From assembly GCA_028717805.1 (NCBI GenBank), contig JAQUNC010000019.1:1-42460 (forward strand): 42,460 bases of DNA, given 5' to 3'. The position numbers and the translations under genes were made by a program. Source of the stretch: Atribacterota bacterium (GTDB lineage: Bacteria; Atribacterota; Phoenicimicrobiia; Phoenicimicrobiales; Stramentimicrobiaceae). Under the pieces are notes generated by a model, which did not search any database, was not told where the DNA came from, and saw nothing but the letters and a program-made list of their open reading frames with translations. Shown piece after piece: positions 4,121 through 34,923 of this stretch (positions are counted from its first letter, which is position 1; each line of letters begins with the position of its first letter).

Positions 4121-4434
4121 TTTTTTACTCCCTCCTTTTCTCTAAATTCATTTTCATCTTTCATTTCAATAGCTTTTGCCGGGCATTCAGCAGCACAAAT
4201 GCCACAACCCTTACAATGCTTATAATCAATGCCCTTTATCTTGCCATCCTCTACTATAATTGAAGAATCCGGGCAAAAGACCCAGCAAATCAGGCAATGT
4301 GTACATTTTTGTTCATCTCTTACCGGTCTTTGAGAACGCCAGGAACCGGTCTCATACTGTTCGGAGTTTCCCGCTTCCAGAATCAAACCTCCTTTGGGAA
4401 TCTCTTTCCATCCCTTTTGTTTAATAGCGCTCAT
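4117..4434 (-). CDS. porD: 2-oxoacid:ferredoxin oxidoreductase, delta (2x[4Fe-4S]) subunit
   Basis: This small ferredoxin-like chain wires electrons out of the enzyme. In 105 residues it has two complete CxxCxxCxxxC cluster motifs, Cys44/47/50/54 and Cys74/77/80/84. The N-terminal arm carries the GGLILEAGNS and TGSWR motifs seen in PorD proteins. It overlaps porG upstream and porA downstream by four bases each. The order gamma-delta-alpha-beta is the standard one for the separate-subunit enzymes. Confidence 0.93.
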   Translation of the reverse strand: MSAIKQKGWKEIPKGGLILEAGNSEQYETGSWRSQRPVRDEQKCTHCLICWVFCPDSSIIVEDGKIKGIDYKHCKGCGICAAECPAKAIEMKDENEFREKEGVKK

Positions 4435-26170: not shown

Positions 26171-27298
26171 TTAAAAAGTAAGGAAATCCATTAGTATTAC
26201 ATAATAATTATCATACTTAACGCCGCCTTCTTCCAGCTGGGTCAGATTAGCATCAACACCGGAATATTCCTTAAATTTCTCCATGAGTATGGGAATATTC
26301 ATTTTTTCTTTGAATTCTCCATGGATCCAGTCCTTAGCATACTCTGCGGAACCCTCAATAAACATCATGGCAACCGGAACTGGCCAGGTAGAAGTCCTTC
26401 CGGTCATTCCCTTTTCTGCCATAATCCTGGTAATCTCCTGGACTACATAATCAATATCTCCCTGTTTATCTGCCGGTATTTCAATACCCAGAGCCGAGGG
26501 AAATCCATGGTAAGGTGAGGGACAGCAGGGCTGTGGGTAGATAGCTCCGGTTGACACCACAGCACTAATCAAAGGCACCTGTTGAGAACAGTTTGTGCTG
26601 AAAAAGGCAGTATCCTTGCCATATTTATCTACCATCCTGGGAACATCTTCCAGTATAAATTGCTGTGAACCTGAAATACCTGCATCACCAGTAGGATCAG
26701 GAGAGGTAGCATCTACGAATTCCAGATCAATCTCTGCACATGTTTTCTTCATTAGTTCTCTTCTACCTGACAGAAGCGGATAAGACATATGCCTGGGGAA
26801 GGAATAATGGACAAATACTTTGGCACCCAGAGCCTTCGCTTGATTGGGGATTGCCACACCCATTCCCATCTCGTCCAGTTGTAATACTATATCGGCTCTG
26901 GTTGATATTACCGGAGGATCTTCCTGAGGCTGTCCGGCAATTATAAGCAGATCATTCCTTATTTCCTTTACGCTGTCTATACCCGGAGCTGTTCCCGGAA
27001 CTGCCTGGCAAATCACTAATGCTTTTAAATCCGGATCGGCAGCCATACTAACTAAATTAGCAATGGTAGTTTCCTGTTCGTCCATAAACTTATCAGGAAA
27101 TGTCATGTGGATTACATGTTCTGATCCATATTTAGCCAGAACATTTTGTGCTGCTCTATACTCTTCTTCATTCTGGGTAACCGTGTTCGTCATAATACCT
27201 ATTTTCCATTTATCCTGTCCCAGAGCAGAAAAGGTCATCACTGATAAAACAATTGCTGTTACTAAAACCAGAACCAAATATTTTCTAAAACTATTCAT
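26171..27298 (-). CDS. DUF3798 periplasmic substrate-binding protein, copy A
   Basis: A 375-residue secreted protein of the DUF3798 family, related to periplasmic sugar/BMP-type binding proteins. Residues 1-27 are a Sec signal peptide ending SALGQ, with no lipobox cysteine. The mature part has GIMTNTVTQNEEEYRAAQNV, SFPRHMSYPLLSGRRELMKK, DATSPDPTGDAGISGSQQFI and PQPCCPSPYHGFPSALGIE. The double cysteine and SPYHGFPSA are shared with copy B. Ligand unknown. It lies directly upstream of the transporter genes and has its own promoter. A ribosome site GGAGG precedes the ATG. Confidence 0.88.
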   Translation of the reverse strand: MNSFRKYLVLVLVTAIVLSVMTFSALGQDKWKIGIMTNTVTQNEEEYRAAQNVLAKYGSEHVIHMTFPDKFMDEQETTIANLVSMAADPDLKALVICQAVPGTAPGIDSVKEIRNDLLIIAGQPQEDPPVISTRADIVLQLDEMGMGVAIPNQAKALGAKVFVHYSFPRHMSYPLLSGRRELMKKTCAEIDLEFVDATSPDPTGDAGISGSQQFILEDVPRMVDKYGKDTAFFSTNCSQQVPLISAVVSTGAIYPQPCCPSPYHGFPSALGIEIPADKQGDIDYVVQEITRIMAEKGMTGRTSTWPVPVAMMFIEGSAEYAKDWIHGEFKEKMNIPILMEKFKEYSGVDANLTQLEEGGVKYDNYYVILMDFLTF

Positions 27299-27762
27299 TT
27301 AATTCCTCCAAATCTATTTTTTAATTTTTTGGGTACTTTAAATCCCTTCTAAAATTTAAAGATAATTAGAAACACAACTATTTTTGATATTACACCCCCT
27401 TATTTTAGATATTATTCTAATTGCTAATTGAATAAAAAGTTATGTTTTAAATATTTAAATTGGAAAAGTTATAAATATTCTATAAAAAATAAAATTGATG
27501 ATTTCTAATTTTTTCATATTGGGGAAGGTTTTTCGGAGTAAATTTTCTTTTTGGTCAGAATTATAGTGGGCTTTAAACCTATAATAACATATGTGCATTA
27601 TTTTATTTGCCTGACTCCCTCTTTTGATTTTTTTATCAACAATTTTAAAATTACTGCTTTAAAATAATATAGACGGCTTTGAATATTTACAAAAGAGTAG
27701 TGCTTCTAAATCTTAAAAAATTTGTTAGGTTTTAAATATTGTATTACTTTAAATATATTTTT
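27299..27762 (-). other. Long untranslated leader of substrate-binding copy A
   Basis: From the predicted start near 27756 to the ATG at 27298 there are about 458 bases with no credible ORF. The first 68 bases before the gene (27299-27366) are identical to those before copy B and can form a small stem (GGG/CCC around an AT palindrome). Further upstream the two leaders diverge. I recognise no riboswitch class here. Confidence 0.4.
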
Positions 27763-27792
27763 ATTATATTCAAAAAAATAATAATTTGTCAA
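27763..27792 (-). promoter_or_regulatory. Promoter of copy A, TTGACA-18-TATAAT
   Basis: Perfect -35 TTGACA (27787-27792) and -10 TATAAT (27763-27768) on the minus strand, 18 bases apart. The bases around it resemble those of the promoter of copy B (CATTGACAA; TTTGAATATAAT), so the promoter was duplicated with the gene. Confidence 0.7.
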
Positions 27793-27939
27793 TGACTGTG
27801 TTATTTATTATCAATTAAAAATTAGTAAGTCAAATCTATTGCCCTTTAATCTAAAATTAAAAATTGAAAGTATTAATGATGGCTTATCATGTCTCTGTTA
27901 TCCCTGTGTACTATTATTTCTCCAGATTCGAAGAAAAGT

Positions 27940-27976
27940 AAAAAGGTAAGGCCGCTTTTTGCAGCCTTACCTTTTT
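27940..27976 (-). terminator. Terminator after substrate-binding copy B
   Basis: AAAAAGGTAAGGC and GCCTTACCTTTTT pair over 13 bases around an 11-base loop, with A/T tracts on both sides. It is located 48 bases after the copy B stop and shares its stem core with the hairpin after copy A. It separates the two paralogues into independent transcripts. Confidence 0.8.
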
Positions 27977-28023
27977 TAAAGCCCTCAGCTGTTATATAGC
28001 TTTATATATCCTGGTTTAAAAGA

Positions 28024-29151
28024 TTAGAAAGTGAGGAAATCTAGTAATACGACAAAATAGTTATCGTAGGAAACTCCGCTCTCTTCCAAAGTCTTTAGAT
28101 TGATATCGACACCAGCGTATTCCTTAAATTTTTCAACCAGTTTTGGTAAAGATACCTTTTCTGTGAATTGGCCTTCAATCCAGGATTTTGCATATTCAGT
28201 GGAACCTTCAATAAACATCATAGCAACCGGTGCTGGCCAGGTAGAAGTCCTTCCGGTCATTCCCTTTTCTGCCATAATCCTGGTAATCTCCTGGACTACA
28301 TAATCAATATCTCCCTGTTTATCTGCCGGTATTTCAATACCCAGAGCCGAGGGAAATCCATGGTAAGGTGAGGGACAGCAGGGCTGTGGGTAGATAGCTC
28401 CGGTTGACACCACGGCACTGATTAGGGGAATCTGCTGCGAGCAGTTTGTGCTGAAAAAGGCAGTATCCTTGCCATATTTATCTACCATCCTGGGAACATC
28501 TTCCAGTATAAATTGTTGAGACCCTGAAATACCTGCATCACCAGTAGGATCAGGAGAGGTAGCATCTACGAATTCCAGACCAATCTCTGCACATGTTTTC
28601 TTTATTAATTCCCTTCTTGCCGAAAGAAGCGGATAAGACATATGCCTGGGGAAGGAATAGTGGACTAACACTTTTGCACCCAGAGCCTTTGCTTGATTGG
28701 GAATTGTAATGCCCATTCCCAGCTCATCAGAAGCAAGTACTAGATCAGCTCTGGCTGATATTACCGGTGGATCTTCATGGGGTACCGCTGTTATAATGAG
28801 AAGATCATCCCTAATCTCCTTTACAGTGTCTATACCAGGTGAAGTTCCCGGAACTGCTTGGCAAATAATTAATGCCTTTACATCCGGATCTGAAGCCATA
28901 CTTACCATATTAGCAATGGTGGTTTCCTGTTCATCCATAAACTTATCCGGGTAAGTCATTACTATTATATGTTCTGATCCATATTTAGCCAGAACATTTT
29001 GTGCTGCCCTGAACTCTTCCTCTCCTTGAGTAACCGTACCAGTCATAATACCTATTTTCCATTTATCCTGTCCCAGAGCAGAAAAGGTCATCACTGATAA
29101 AACAATTGCTGTTACTAAAACCAGAACCAAATATTTTCTAAAACTATTCAT
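28024..29151 (-). CDS. DUF3798 periplasmic substrate-binding protein, copy B
   Basis: A 375-residue paralogue of copy A, with the same first 37 residues including the signal peptide. Long blocks are identical in amino acids and in DNA (for example 28235-28410 against 26382-26557). Other parts differ clearly: GIMTGTVTQGEEEFRAAQNV, LASDELGMGITIPNQAKALG, and the C-terminus KSWIEGQFTEKVSLPKLVEK. Changes sit in the ligand-lobe regions and the tail, so the two may bind different ligands for one transporter. Its promoter and terminator make it a separate unit. A GGAGG ribosome site precedes the ATG. Confidence 0.88.
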   Translation of the reverse strand: MNSFRKYLVLVLVTAIVLSVMTFSALGQDKWKIGIMTGTVTQGEEEFRAAQNVLAKYGSEHIIVMTYPDKFMDEQETTIANMVSMASDPDVKALIICQAVPGTSPGIDTVKEIRDDLLIITAVPHEDPPVISARADLVLASDELGMGITIPNQAKALGAKVLVHYSFPRHMSYPLLSARRELIKKTCAEIGLEFVDATSPDPTGDAGISGSQQFILEDVPRMVDKYGKDTAFFSTNCSQQIPLISAVVSTGAIYPQPCCPSPYHGFPSALGIEIPADKQGDIDYVVQEITRIMAEKGMTGRTSTWPAPVAMMFIEGSTEYAKSWIEGQFTEKVSLPKLVEKFKEYAGVDINLKTLEESGVSYDNYFVVLLDFLTF

Positions 29152-29733: not shown

Positions 29734-31161
29734 ATGATTTTAAAGGCAATGAGAAAAGAAATGGATTTGGAAAACAAAAAGATTACCGTAATGGGATTGG
29801 GTTTAAACCAGGGTGGCTTAGGTGTTACTCGGTTTTTAGCAAAATCAGGTGCACATGTTCTGGTGACTGACCTTAAAACAGGATATGAATTACAAGAAAC
29901 ATTGGATAAATTAAAGGAATACAACAATATCCAATTCGTCTTAGGCCAGCATCGAATTCAGGATTTTGTTAATACTGATATGATAATCCAGAATCCAGCA
30001 GTCCCACATAATTCAAAGTATTTACAAGTTGCCAGAACTCATGGTATTCCCATTGAAACGGATTTATCTTTATTTCTTAAAATTTGCCCTTCTCGAAATC
30101 TAATTGCTGTGGGAGGAACAAAGGGTAAAAGCACGGTTACCAATCTAATTTATCATACTTTTTATCAGTCTAAAAAGAATATTGTCCATGCCGGCAATAT
30201 TGGTATTTCTGTATTTGATATATTACCTGAAATTAAATCCAACACAATTGTTTTATTAGAAATTTCCAGCTGGCAGCTGGAAGGTCTTTCTCAAATATCC
30301 TTTCAGCCCCATATTGCCGTTTTAACCAACATTCTACCTGATCACTTAGACAGATATGGCAGTTTTATTGATTATGCTTGTTCTGAAAAATTAATCTACA
30401 AATTTCAGAATCAATCTGACTATCTGATTACCAATCTGGATAATCCTATCACCAGAAATATTGCTCAAGAAACTCCAACAAACATTTTCTGGTTCAGCAC
30501 CAAAAACAAAGTAACTCAAGGAAGTTATCTTGAAGAAGATAGATTAATCTTTAAATCAAAAAATGGATTAACAGAAATTTGCACTATCAGTGATATTCCA
30601 ATCCCCGGTCTTCATAATATTAGTAATATACTGGCTGCTTCAAATATCTTTTTTATCTACAAACTTCCTTTAACTTCCATCCAGGAAGGTATAAAGACCT
30701 TCCCAGGTGTACCAAACCGATTAGAAAAGATTAAAACCTTCCATGGAATTAATTTTTACAATGATACCTGTGCCACAACTCCTGATGCCACTATTGCTGC
30801 TATCCAATCATTAGAAGCAGAACCATTAATCCTGATTCTGGGAGGGAGAGATAAAAAACTAAACTATGATAAGTTGTGCCAGACTATTAAAAGGAAGAAA
30901 AACGTTATTAATATAATGATTTTGCAGCATCCAGCATATAATGCTTCTAAAATCATCTGGAACAATTTCCAAAAACTTAAGCTAAATAATAAAACTGAAC
31001 TCTGTTATTCTATGTCTGAGGCTGTCCAAAAAGCTTATCAGAAGGCAATTCCAGGAACAAACATCATTCTTTCACCGGCAGCTACCAGTTTCGGTATGTT
31101 CTCGAATGAATTTGAAAGAGGGAATTCTTTCCGACTTGCTATTAATAAATTAACCGGTTAA
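29734..31161 (+). CDS. murD: UDP-N-acetylmuramoyl-L-alanine--D-glutamate ligase (MurD)
   Basis: Adds D-glutamate to UDP-MurNAc-L-Ala in peptidoglycan synthesis. The protein, 466-475 residues, has the N-terminal Rossmann-like domain (KKITVMGLGLNQGGLG), the ATP loop GGTKGKST at about 127-134, the Mur ligase motifs EISSWQLEGL and LTNILPDHLDRYGSF, and a C-terminal domain with LILGGRDKKLNYD and SPAATSFGMFSNEFERG. The start is uncertain: ATG at 29734, 29749 or 29761 are possible, and 29761 fits the usual N-terminus best. It is alone on this strand, away from other cell-wall genes except lgt, and converges on the Ntn-hydrolase gene. Confidence 0.88.
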   Translation: MILKAMRKEMDLENKKITVMGLGLNQGGLGVTRFLAKSGAHVLVTDLKTGYELQETLDKLKEYNNIQFVLGQHRIQDFVNTDMIIQNPAVPHNSKYLQVARTHGIPIETDLSLFLKICPSRNLIAVGGTKGKSTVTNLIYHTFYQSKKNIVHAGNIGISVFDILPEIKSNTIVLLEISSWQLEGLSQISFQPHIAVLTNILPDHLDRYGSFIDYACSEKLIYKFQNQSDYLITNLDNPITRNIAQETPTNIFWFSTKNKVTQGSYLEEDRLIFKSKNGLTEICTISDIPIPGLHNISNILAASNIFFIYKLPLTSIQEGIKTFPGVPNRLEKIKTFHGINFYNDTCATTPDATIAAIQSLEAEPLILILGGRDKKLNYDKLCQTIKRKKNVINIMILQHPAYNASKIIWNNFQKLKLNNKTELCYSMSEAVQKAYQKAIPGTNIILSPAATSFGMFSNEFERGNSFRLAINKLTG

Positions 31162-31178
31162 AAATAACTTTTTTACTT

Positions 31179-32126
31179 TTATTCTATTTGAAGATGATCA
31201 TGTACCAAAATCTTCTTTTTACGAATCCATTTAAAACCTTCCTCCGGTGTGATAGTTAGCACTTCAACCAATCCACCTACTCCCGGCAGGTCACCTGGAT
31301 TTGCTTTAATCCCATCTGAAAATCTTTGAATAGCTGAAGTCGTTTCAATCATTAAAGTACAAAAATCAATGGCATCCTGAAGGGTCATGGTTCCCCACTG
31401 AATGACATATTCCAGGTTGTGAAGTTGCTGCCCAATTATTTCTTTGTCGATACTGTTGCCTATCTCTTCCATAAAGGGTAAGTTACCTATTCTTCCATCA
31501 AATCCCAGAACAATCCTGGATACCACATCAGTCTGACCAATCCAGTTCGCCCCATACTCTCTTCCCCTTTCCTTACTATCTCTGTTCTTCTTTTTATCAC
31601 CGGGTATTTGACAGGTAAAAACCTGAAAGGAATCATCACTGTTAATACCGGCAATAATGAAACTGATAGGGTCAATTCTCCCTATTCCGCTCCTGGTATG
31701 ACCATGGGAATCTATATAACGAAAATCAATGAAGGATTCTTTTCTCTTTATTTCTAATACTTTACATTGTTGCAACACCAATTCATTCTTTATGCGCTCC
31801 TCTGCTTGTATTAATTGATTCTGCCAATCATATTTTTCCTCAAATAAATGTATTAACCGGTCAGCATTACTTTCTACCGAGTTTTGATCTACTTGATTTC
31901 TCTGGACAAATTCCTTAATATAACTACCAATGCTCTTTGGTATACCATTCTCGGGCAAAAAAGCCAGTCCGGTAACGGCAATACCAATTTTTCCGCTTAA
32001 CTGTAAAAGTTTTGAGGCATTATCACTACCAATTCTAGCCATGCCTTTACGATTGCGGTATGATTGACGACTATCTGCTGCCAGAACAAGACCTTCTGGA
32101 ATGGTAGCATTAATTGCTAAGGACAT
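31179..32126 (-). CDS. Proteasome-beta-like Ntn hydrolase
   Basis: A 315-residue protein that aligns by eye to proteasome beta subunits. After Met removal, Ser1 would be the N-terminal nucleophile and GLVLAADSR places an Asp at position 17, as in the proteasome. SKLLQLSGKIGIAVTG corresponds to the K33 strand, with a five-residue insertion. ISFIIAGINSDDSFQVFTCQ matches the central strand pair, and TLQDAIDFCTLMIETTSAIQ the long helix. LPGVGGLVEVLTIT matches the last strands. Insertions of tens of residues enlarge it. The second residue is Ser, not Thr, and there is no propeptide. Substrate unknown. It is the last gene of a run behind two membrane proteins. Confidence 0.65.
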   Translation of the reverse strand: MSLAINATIPEGLVLAADSRQSYRNRKGMARIGSDNASKLLQLSGKIGIAVTGLAFLPENGIPKSIGSYIKEFVQRNQVDQNSVESNADRLIHLFEEKYDWQNQLIQAEERIKNELVLQQCKVLEIKRKESFIDFRYIDSHGHTRSGIGRIDPISFIIAGINSDDSFQVFTCQIPGDKKKNRDSKERGREYGANWIGQTDVVSRIVLGFDGRIGNLPFMEEIGNSIDKEIIGQQLHNLEYVIQWGTMTLQDAIDFCTLMIETTSAIQRFSDGIKANPGDLPGVGGLVEVLTITPEEGFKWIRKKKILVHDHLQIE

Positions 32127-32177
32127 TATTTGCTATTCTCCTTTCTTTAGATTTTAAAGAAACTTACCTATTGTATA

Positions 32178-32540
32178 TTATTGCACTTTCTTTCTTCTAT
32201 TGCTTAAGAAAATCCCAGCATACGCACCTATAAGACCTATTAAGCCAAAATAAAGTACCAGGGAAAAAAGATTCCCCCTAATAATAATTTCTGTATAATG
32301 GGCAGCTCTACTACCAAAAAGAGTTATTAGGTTTTGATGCCAGGTATTTTCAGAATAGGAAAAAAGAATCCTACAGAACACTCCACCAATTATTGCTCCC
32401 AAAAAACCAATCACTAAAGCCGGTTCCTTCTTAGCAGCCATAAATCCGGCTAAAGCACCTGAAAGGATAGGGCCAAACAATGGTAAAGTACCCAGTACTG
32501 CAGTAGCAACAATGGTCAGTAATAAAATAATGGTCACCAT
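32178..32540 (-). CDS. Small multi-pass membrane protein, unknown family
   Basis: A 120-residue protein with about four hydrophobic segments: residues 2-22, 24-40 (rich in Gly and Ala), 42-60, and 90-112. It ends in the basic tail SNRRKKVQ. The glycine-rich stretch GPILSGALAGFMAAKKEP is like those of DUF5518-type small membrane proteins, but I cannot assign it. It lies 26 bases after the DUF1461 gene and 51 before the Ntn-hydrolase gene, so these three are probably co-transcribed. Confidence 0.6.
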   Translation of the reverse strand: MVTIILLLTIVATAVLGTLPLFGPILSGALAGFMAAKKEPALVIGFLGAIIGGVFCRILFSYSENTWHQNLITLFGSRAAHYTEIIIRGNLFSLVLYFGLIGLIGAYAGIFLSNRRKKVQ

Positions 32541-32566
32541 AACCTATTCCTGTTCAACATTATTCT

Positions 32567-33271
32567 CTAATATCTAATCCTTTTACGATAACTAATCAGA
32601 ACAATACTGCTAATAAAGATTAAAAGCAGAGCGGTAAGAATAACCATACCAATTCCCAGTATTACAGCATCCTGCCAGAAATTAAGAGGATACATCCTAA
32701 TTAAATAATCGGTTTTGGGGTCCAGCATCCATGGTGAATTCCGGGGATCTCCAAAAACCAGATAATGGAACTTGGTAAAAAGATTATGAAAACCAAAAAA
32801 TATGGCAATTCCCAAACCAAGCAACGAACCAAGGGTTAAGATATTCCCATTTCTTAATCCCTTCCAAAAATAATACCATTTCTTTCTATTTCGGCTTACC
32901 ATGGTAAAAAGAAGATAACCTAAACAGTATAAAAGAGTAACGATTAAAACCTGAAATGCATAGTGGAAAAGCACCTTCACATCATTTAGGTGTTCTATTT
33001 CATAGACGTGGAATAGGTACATTGGTTTACCATTATTTTCTATCATCAACTGAGCATGGGCTACTTTATCGTTAAAAAATTGAATCAGATGACGGGTAAT
33101 CACCATTAATTGGTCATTGGTAAAACCAGTTACTTCGCTAATATGGTATTTCTGGTAAGCATACTCATAAAAAGGTAGAAAGTCTAATTCCAAAACTACT
33201 GCCGAAGAAATCAATAATATAGGGATTGAGATTATAAATATAAAATAGAATATAATACGCAGGTTATCCAC
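32567..33271 (-). CDS. Integral membrane protein, DUF1461 (TIGR01906) family
   Basis: A 234-residue membrane protein of the TIGR01906/DUF1461 family, function unknown. A first membrane helix is followed by the family's extracytoplasmic part (FYEYAYQKYHISEVTGFTND; then HLIQFFNDK and HLNDVKVLFHYA), and then three more helices with FHNLFTKFHYLVFGD and PLNFWQDAVILG. It starts with GTG, chosen because AAAGGA lies eight bases upstream. It is the first gene of the run leading to the Ntn hydrolase. Confidence 0.8.
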   Translation of the reverse strand: MDNLRIIFYFIFIISIPILLISSAVVLELDFLPFYEYAYQKYHISEVTGFTNDQLMVITRHLIQFFNDKVAHAQLMIENNGKPMYLFHVYEIEHLNDVKVLFHYAFQVLIVTLLYCLGYLLFTMVSRNRKKWYYFWKGLRNGNILTLGSLLGLGIAIFFGFHNLFTKFHYLVFGDPRNSPWMLDPKTDYLIRMYPLNFWQDAVILGIGMVILTALLLIFISSIVLISYRKRIRY

Positions 33272-33319
33272 CTCATTATTCCTTTAAATATTATGTTTTT
33301 ATATTATCGGGAAAATCCG

Positions 33320-33892
33320 CTATTGGGAGATGATTATTTCAGAAAGAGATCTTTTGGGTACATGATGCATTTGATTTTCATCGCGCCAATATTGGATATT
33401 TCCATGTGAACCTATTTCATCGATCTGAATTTTCTCTATCGGATAACCAATTGCCAGTACGTATAGAATTTCATATTGAGAAGATATATTAAGCAAAGTT
33501 CTCAATCTATCGCGAGCTACAGCACCAAATATGCAACCTCCTAAGCTTTTCTCAGTGGCACCCAGTAATATACTTTGGGCAGCTATACCAGGATCTATAC
33601 CAAAATTAGTAGCAATGTTATTATCACCTAAAATAATAATATAGGCTGTAGGTCTTTCTCCCTGGGCAGGTCCTTTCCAATCCTTCAAATAAGCAGCCCA
33701 GGCAAGAGTGCTAAATATAAGTTTATTGCTTTCCTTTGTATAGGATAAATAGTATTTTAGCGGCTGCCGATTAGCTGCAGAAGGAGATAATCTTGCTAAA
33801 TCAACTAAATCTACAAGCTCTTTTTTACTTATCTTCTTGCTTTCATCAAAACGACGATAACTGCGACTTTTTTTTATTAAATCACTTAACAT
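33320..33892 (-). CDS. Nitroreductase-family protein
   Basis: A 190-residue flavoprotein of the nitroreductase family. The N-terminal SRSYRRFDESKKISKKEL and LARLSPSAANRQPLKYYL bind FMN phosphate. The central GIAAQSILLGATEKSLGGCI helix and the VLAIGYPIEKIQ strand are typical. Electron donor and acceptor are not evident; many anaerobe members are uncharacterised oxidoreductases. AAAGGAGG precedes the ATG by about five bases. It is 48 bases from the DUF1461 gene on the same strand. Confidence 0.85.
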   Translation of the reverse strand: MLSDLIKKSRSYRRFDESKKISKKELVDLVDLARLSPSAANRQPLKYYLSYTKESNKLIFSTLAWAAYLKDWKGPAQGERPTAYIIILGDNNIATNFGIDPGIAAQSILLGATEKSLGGCIFGAVARDRLRTLLNISSQYEILYVLAIGYPIEKIQIDEIGSHGNIQYWRDENQMHHVPKRSLSEIIISQ

Positions 33893-33977
33893 GATTCCCT
33901 CCTTTAATTTTTACCTAAATTTACCTAATGATACTGAATCCTTCAGTATAGTAATTGCACTGACTAATATCTGAGTT

Positions 33978-34058
33978 TCATAAATTTAGATAACCATCAC
34001 TAAAAAGTAAAGCCACTAAAGCAATGATAGCTAAAAAAATTAAGAATTGGCTATTCAT
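33978..34058 (-). CDS. 26-residue single-span membrane peptide overlapping lgt
   Basis: A short frame whose ATG (34056-34058) overlaps the last codons of lgt. The lgt end supplies GGGAGGGAGAGA as ribosome site. The peptide has NSQFLIFLAIIALVALLFSD in its first part, one clear membrane helix, and ends GYLNL. Small hydrophobic frames can arise by chance in AT-rich DNA. The ribosome site and the lgt overlap are the arguments for it. Confidence 0.4.
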   Translation of the reverse strand: MNSQFLIFLAIIALVALLFSDGYLNL

Positions 34059-34923
34059 TCTCTCCCTCCCTGACTATGGGTAAATAAGTTTTGTCTTTTC
34101 TAATGAATATGATAAGCAGACCGACAACAATCATCAACAAAGACATGACCTGTGCAAGATTCATAAATTCCAGATATAATTTTACCATTCCGGATGGCTC
34201 CCTGATAAACTCAATAACAAAACGAATTATTCCATATCCTATCAGATAGACACTTAGAGTTAAACCATTAAACCATTTCTTTTTACGTAAGCTCCATAAA
34301 ATAATAAAAAGGACTATTCCCTCAAAAAATGCTTCATACAGTTGGCTGGGATGTCGTAATTGATGAGTGGGATCAGCGGGAAAATACATTCCCCAGGGCA
34401 GAATGGTTACCTTTCCATATAATTCTCCATTAATAAAATTACCAATTCTTCCAAAGGTATATCCAGCAGGAATTGCCGGAACAACTATATCTGCAAATTG
34501 CCAGTGGTTAAATTTACGAATATAGCAGAATAATATATATGCCAGGACCAGGGTAATCACCCCACCATGATAAGACATACCCAGGATACCGGTATAGCGC
34601 AAACCTTCCGAAAAATCAAAAGGTAAAATAATTTTCCAGGGATTTGCCAGGTAATAACCCAAATCAGAGGTGACAACATGTCCTACCCTGCCGCCAAGGA
34701 CAGCACTGATAATAGCCCAGAGTAGAAAATCGAAAACCATAGATTCTTCTAAAATCAATTTTTCAGAACGAATACGATATATTACCAGAAAAAAGGCAGT
34801 TAAAAAACCCACCGGATACATAAGTCCATACCAGTATATCTTAAACTGACCAAAAGATATCAGCACTGGATTAATATACTCAGGAATATGCGCCCACCAG
34901 CCTATTGCCATAACTTGTTCCAT
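34051..34923 (-). CDS. lgt: Prolipoprotein diacylglyceryl transferase
   Basis: Transfers diacylglycerol from phosphatidylglycerol to the lipobox cysteine of prolipoproteins. The 290-residue membrane protein has about seven spans, the GGRVGHV motif (about 79-85), the conserved His in MSYHGGVI, and the family signature FGRIGNFINGELYG. The C-terminal REPSG in the last periplasmic loop is also typical. AAAGG lies eight bases before the ATG. Confidence 0.96.
   Translation of the reverse strand: MEQVMAIGWWAHIPEYINPVLISFGQFKIYWYGLMYPVGFLTAFFLVIYRIRSEKLILEESMVFDFLLWAIISAVLGGRVGHVVTSDLGYYLANPWKIILPFDFSEGLRYTGILGMSYHGGVITLVLAYILFCYIRKFNHWQFADIVVPAIPAGYTFGRIGNFINGELYGKVTILPWGMYFPADPTHQLRHPSQLYEAFFEGIVLFIILWSLRKKKWFNGLTLSVYLIGYGIIRFVIEFIREPSGMVKLYLEFMNLAQVMSLLMIVVGLLIIFIRKDKTYLPIVREGENE

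Follow-up and report, generated by a model that had tools for sequence, protein, structure and literature searches.

What does a proteasome-like protein do when it is encoded directly behind two membrane proteins, with no proteasome partner beside it? The question is raised by a gene for a 315-residue protein on the minus strand (31179..32126) of the window, by which we mean the whole 42,460-nucleotide stretch of Atribacterota DNA analysed here. A preliminary description had proposed an undescribed group of Ser-type N-terminal nucleophile (Ntn) hydrolases working at the membrane. We keep the enzyme and abandon the membrane: the product is probably a cytosolic, stand-alone Ntn hydrolase of the proteasome-like superfamily, of the published PMI type and most likely PMI-3. 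The open reading frame starts with ATG, about 10 bases downstream of a Shine-Dalgarno-like AAAGGAG, and is a real gene on which purifying selection acts strongly (with dS saturated, dN is 0.14 and 0.19 in comparisons with two relatives). Its convergent neighbour is a MurD-like ligase gene (29734..31161, plus strand), whose end marks the empty site in relatives. Beyond it, at 26171-29151, lies a tandem pair of similar genes of 375 amino acids each, the second a DUF3798 gene; the pair recurs in G004, a genome of the same genus.

The Pfam Proteasome model (PF00227) covers residues 10-55 with 15.7 bits, below its cut-off of 22.4, a score that is not defining for the superfamily because the divergent proteasome homologs described by Fuchs, Alva and Lupas likewise escaped ordinary searches (PMC8665760). 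A single-sequence search against solved proteasome chains gave no match. With a family profile, the best match in the PDB is the Thermoplasma proteasome beta subunit at a marginal E-value of 0.0044, in keeping with the likeness to that protein remarked on in the preliminary description. An AlphaFold2 model built from 18 sequences, distant relatives from viral contigs included (mean pLDDT 82, pTM 0.80; it supersedes an eleven-sequence model of pLDDT 64), presents the strand-helix order of proteasome beta plus two insertions. Foldseek searches of the PDB with this model returned 364 matches at E<=1e-3, the 50 listed being proteasome chains without exception; Anbu (5nyw) was among the matches of the first model. 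TM-scores against full chains are modest owing to the insertions, with a maximum of 0.67 by target among the matches listed. The protein is thus modelled with the proteasome-beta Ntn sandwich, the fold on which the earlier reading had been made to depend.

Both insertions can be placed in the model. One follows H1/H2 (residues 119-152; 31671..31772, minus strand) and is predicted to form three strands at 122-150; it is variable in sequence, with 3 of 34 positions invariant, and is missing from the alignment rows of the shorter relatives on viral or phage contigs. The other, between H3 and H4 (residues 211-240; 31407..31496, minus strand), is predicted to be helical from 211 to 236 and corresponds to insertion site 4 of the published survey (PMC8665760). 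A hydropathy scan of the protein found no stretch reaching the membrane-span threshold of 1.6, the maximum being 1.42.

Alignment identifies conserved counterparts of proteasome Thr1, Asp17, Lys33 and Gly47 in Ser2 (codon 32121..32123), Asp18 (32073..32075), Lys39 (32010..32012) and Gly53 (31968..31970), all on the minus strand. Ser2 and Asp18 are 16 residues apart, as Thr1 and Asp17 are, and Lys39 and Gly53 are separated by 14, as are Lys33 and Gly47; from Asp18 to Lys39 the chain is five residues longer than its counterpart in proteasome beta. All 13 close relatives carry Ser at position 2, an invariance on which the earlier reading had likewise been made to depend, and distant ones have Ser or Thr. 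Asp18 is invariant in the close family and kept in at least 90% of aligned rows, and Lys39 and Gly53 are found in 18/18 rows, distant relatives included. In every intact member seen, position 2 directly follows the start codon, so that there is no propeptide, an arrangement that one would expect for an N-terminal nucleophile. Spacing, fold model and conserved positions therefore agree with the Ser-type, propeptide-free, insertion-bearing Ntn protein of the preliminary description, for which catalysis is predicted.

Conservation is concentrated in two places. Among 13 relatives, 99 of 315 positions are invariant, and these cluster at residues 10-39 and 244-273, with 21 of 30 in each (permutation p 2e-4). 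Within the first segment lies a hyperconserved loop, residues 19-38 (SRQSYRNRKGMARIGSDNAS; 32013..32072, minus strand), which carries five basic residues and is probably mobile, given its low pLDDT. In the proteasome, the equivalent residues line the S1 pocket. A conserved, basic and putatively mobile loop at this position, beside the nucleophile, suggests a single narrow and perhaps acidic substrate.

Proteins of this kind were not, as first supposed, undescribed: 22 new proteasome-like groups were reported in 2021, and two of these, PMI-3 and PMI-4, are alone in combining an insertion after H1/H2 with one between H3 and H4 (PMC8665760). PMI-3, a "proteasome homolog with multiple insertions" represented by OGZ26396.1, comprises 28 sequences at nr90 and 11 at nr70 from Proteobacteria, other Bacteria and Euryarchaeota, whereas PMI-4 is a large group of 501 sequences at nr90, some of them in phages (PMC8665760). 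Our protein shares with PMI-3 the proteasome-like core, the Ser/Thr1-Asp17-Lys33-Gly47 positions, the lack of a propeptide, both insertions and the small size of the group; with PMI-4 it shares the Ntn core and the two insertion sites. Our phage-contig relatives have no H1/H2 insertion and so do not resemble PMI-4. Of the two groups PMI-3 is the better fit, given its small size and the OGZ prefix of its representative, one used for Parcubacteria MAGs; the prefix is a lead rather than a test. The assignment to the PMI type, most likely PMI-3, is made by the published insertion sites. In the literature searched we found neither a function nor an activity measurement for any PMI protein. The window protein is a new member of an already described proteasome-like group.

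To find relatives, 84,980 genomes were scanned with six exact short peptides, a procedure that detects only relatives sharing one of them, and the twelve related loci that we count (53-78% identical) are accordingly fewer than truly exist. They come from Atribacterota, Patescibacteria, WWE3, Omnitrophota, Clostridia, Dehalococcoidia and two further MAGs, a range that differs in composition from the one published for PMI-3. In the tree, the copies of Atribacterota family f2 fall among those of Clostridia, Omnitrophota and Patescibacteria, apart from those of family f1, with deep forks weakly supported; horizontal spread is plausible on this topology. Carriage as phage or plasmid cargo was considered and rejected: phage and plasmid records contain no match to the window protein, and viral contigs hold only distant relatives. 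Plasmid and phage searches with distant members yielded no new annotated loci, and PHROGs gave only a weak match to phrog_5990, a family of unknown function.

Several variants were seen among the relatives. A frameshift breaks the Ntn frame near the basic loop in G007 (L042 6455-6560), in mid-gene in a Dehalococcoidia MAG (L011 2890-3887) and in a distant relative in G040 (L045 7639-8345), through either real decay or assembly error. Two Ntn genes of the proteasome-like superfamily stand in tandem in G307 (L051 826-2544). A shorter subgroup of MSF type, with 242-245 amino acids, occurs in G210, G062 and G349 (L117, L118, L120); a gene resembling S-adenosylhomocysteine hydrolase, recognised by Pfam in L117 and by sequence likeness in the others, is adjacent in two of these genomes and no more than three genes away in the remaining one, and a metallophosphoesterase gene lies downstream in two of the three.

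The setting in the genome is not that of a proteasome. With the Thermoplasma beta subunit, its best PDB profile match, the protein shares the fold and the Ser/Thr1-Asp17 and Lys-Gly spacings; unlike that subunit, it has a Ser nucleophile, no propeptide and about 110 more residues, it does not reach the cut-off of the archaeal beta model TIGR03634 (12.8 against 224 bits), and its genome has no alpha subunit or matching ATPase. A profile search of this 97% complete genome found a single other PF00227 match, an HslV gene next to an HslU-type AAA gene on another contig (C31), and a search with the proteasomal ATPase OB domain (PF16450) found no match, so that no ARC, Mpa or PAN-type ATPase is detectable. 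The absence of an alpha subunit or ATPase partner asserted in the preliminary description holds beside the gene; elsewhere in the genome HslV has its HslU. The latter adjoins the HslV gene rather than ours, and the pair is the genome's own machinery for bulk degradation. HslV belongs to the same superfamily, has 176 amino acids and lies above the PF00227 cut-off, below which the window protein falls.

Our best guess is that the protein works in the cytosol as a Ser-Ntn peptidase or transacylase, acting on a narrow substrate and lacking a dedicated ATPase. Methionine aminopeptidase would remove Met1 and expose Ser2. The free amino group of Ser2, with Lys39 and Asp18, would activate the hydroxyl of that residue for attack on a substrate amide bond. 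The Gly53 backbone would provide the oxyanion hole, and the acyl-enzyme would be resolved by water or another amine. The basic loop 19-38, a low-confidence region of the model at the position of the proteasome substrate pocket, would probably select the substrate. A monomer or small oligomer seems probable: the sites of insertion point towards the pore of the ring and the interface between rings (PMC8665760), which makes a stacked double ring unlikely.

Hydrolysis is the default reading, and a connectase-like activity is possible, in which a second peptide would resolve the acyl-enzyme through its amine and the protein would act as a specific ligase or transpeptidase. Connectase is itself a proteasome-like family member with ligase activity and a mobile specificity element (PMC8665760); it carries extra elements, as our protein does, and is not a double-ring protease, as ours probably is not, and the hyperconserved, low-confidence loop described above would suit one fixed substrate. 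However, H1/H2 is missing from connectase, whose insertion lies at S3/S4, whereas the window protein retains H1/H2 and is extended at other sites, and no paired substrate gene is conserved in the neighbourhoods compared. We regard a dedicated ligase as unlikely.

A different lead comes from restriction-modification (R-M) genes. A PF01555 or PF02384 methyltransferase lies within 5 kb in 5 of 22 Ntn-bearing genomes, against 0.83 expected (P 0.001), the expectation being derived from gene density with hand-entered match counts and rounded genome sizes and with contig ends ignored, and the P value being optimistic because the idea arose post hoc from several of the same loci. The positives include the close-family members L007, L008 and L012. 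One of three loci found later is also positive: in G334 (L147 2447-10204), a distant Thr-type relative stands between a ThiF (E1-like) gene and the type I genes HsdR/HsdS. Relatives on viral contigs (L036 4093-5718, L041 3685-5277, L039 2001-4799) lie 0.3-0.8 kb from methyltransferase genes, of the N6_N4 type with an Mrr-like end or MmeI-like, and one distant relative (G040) is near PglZ. The window, however, shows no such association, and neither do L003, L009-L011 or the remaining members of Atribacterota families f1 and f2; most of the signal comes from the distant Thr-type group, and no PADLOC model matches the Ntn protein. A control set of 29 near-random viral loci contained no positive, a weak result that is not evidence, since the queries came from positive loci. 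It is thus quite improbable that the enzyme is a defence-linked protein of R-M islands, one that would process, activate or degrade a component upon challenge to, or loss of, the R-M genes. The broader reading, that PMI proteins are linked to R-M and related defence loci, where a protease recruited from the proteasome lineage would serve as regulator or effector, with the window copy orphaned or chromosomally settled, is tentative and unlikely.

The membrane reading, in which the Ntn protein acts in one operon with its two neighbours, fares far worse. The genes are as first described: a DUF1461 membrane protein (32567..33271, minus strand) and a four-span, 120-amino-acid hydrophobic membrane protein, DUF5518-like below cut-off (32178..32540, minus strand), precede the Ntn gene on the same strand with gaps of 26 and 51 bases, an order shared by G006 and G007. 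DUF1461 is now Pfam Lit, the lipoprotein intramolecular transacylase, whose structure and mechanism have been published (PMC8275575). The DUF1461 protein of the window scores 108.8 bits (E 4e-31) with Pfam Lit and 83.8 with TIGR01906 (cut-off 74.8), and does not reach the NCBI Lit equivalog cut-off. Lgt is encoded two genes upstream of it, with a nitroreductase gene in between (32567-34923), and the f1 genomes examined preserve this order, save G008 and G009, where the nitroreductase gene is missing.

Against the operon stands the inheritance of its parts. Three congeneric genomes (G001, G002, G004) have nitroreductase, Lit, four-span and MurD-like genes in intact succession without the Ntn gene; the compared genomes are drafts, and such contiguous empty sites are independent of completeness. 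Lit is kept in G008 and G009, from which both four-span and Ntn genes are absent, and in four genomes of the neighbouring family f2 (G011, G013, G018, G022) the Ntn gene occurs without any Lit match. In f2 another membrane protein, rich in TPRs, is encoded 27 bases ahead of the Ntn gene. We considered it as a partner, since it was found in 5/5 Ntn-bearing f2 genomes searched, and rejected it: a GNAT gene further upstream is equally distributed, TPR and GNAT genes occurring in the same six genomes, which indicates that the whole block is lineage-limited and travels together. In one of these, G010, all that is left of the Ntn gene behind the TPR gene is its last dozen or so codons, which abut the TPR stop codon (L138, reverse complement, about 4309-4352). 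No membrane neighbour is common to f1, f2 and other lineages in the neighbourhoods compared. Lit and four-span proteins are therefore bystanders, inherited independently of the Ntn gene; a complex of the three failed the co-inheritance test, and action at the membrane is very improbable.

Equally improbable is a catalytically dead scaffold, a state that proteasome alpha subunits show the fold can reach (PMC8665760) and that the alpha chains among the early Foldseek ranks might recall, since all catalytic positions are conserved and position 2 is held directly behind the start codon.

For the biology of the family, the locus adds Atribacterota members to the PMI-type proteins and shows, by sequence comparison, that carriage of the gene is optional, with at least one loss, as the empty sites and the one scar in G010 attest. 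The conserved surface is narrowed to the basic loop beside the nucleophile and to residues 244-273. A tempting membrane story is removed, and a checkable lead to restriction-modification is raised: the 2021 survey reported no suggestive genomic context for PMI proteins (PMC8665760), and the R-M link, if true, would be the first such clue for the group.
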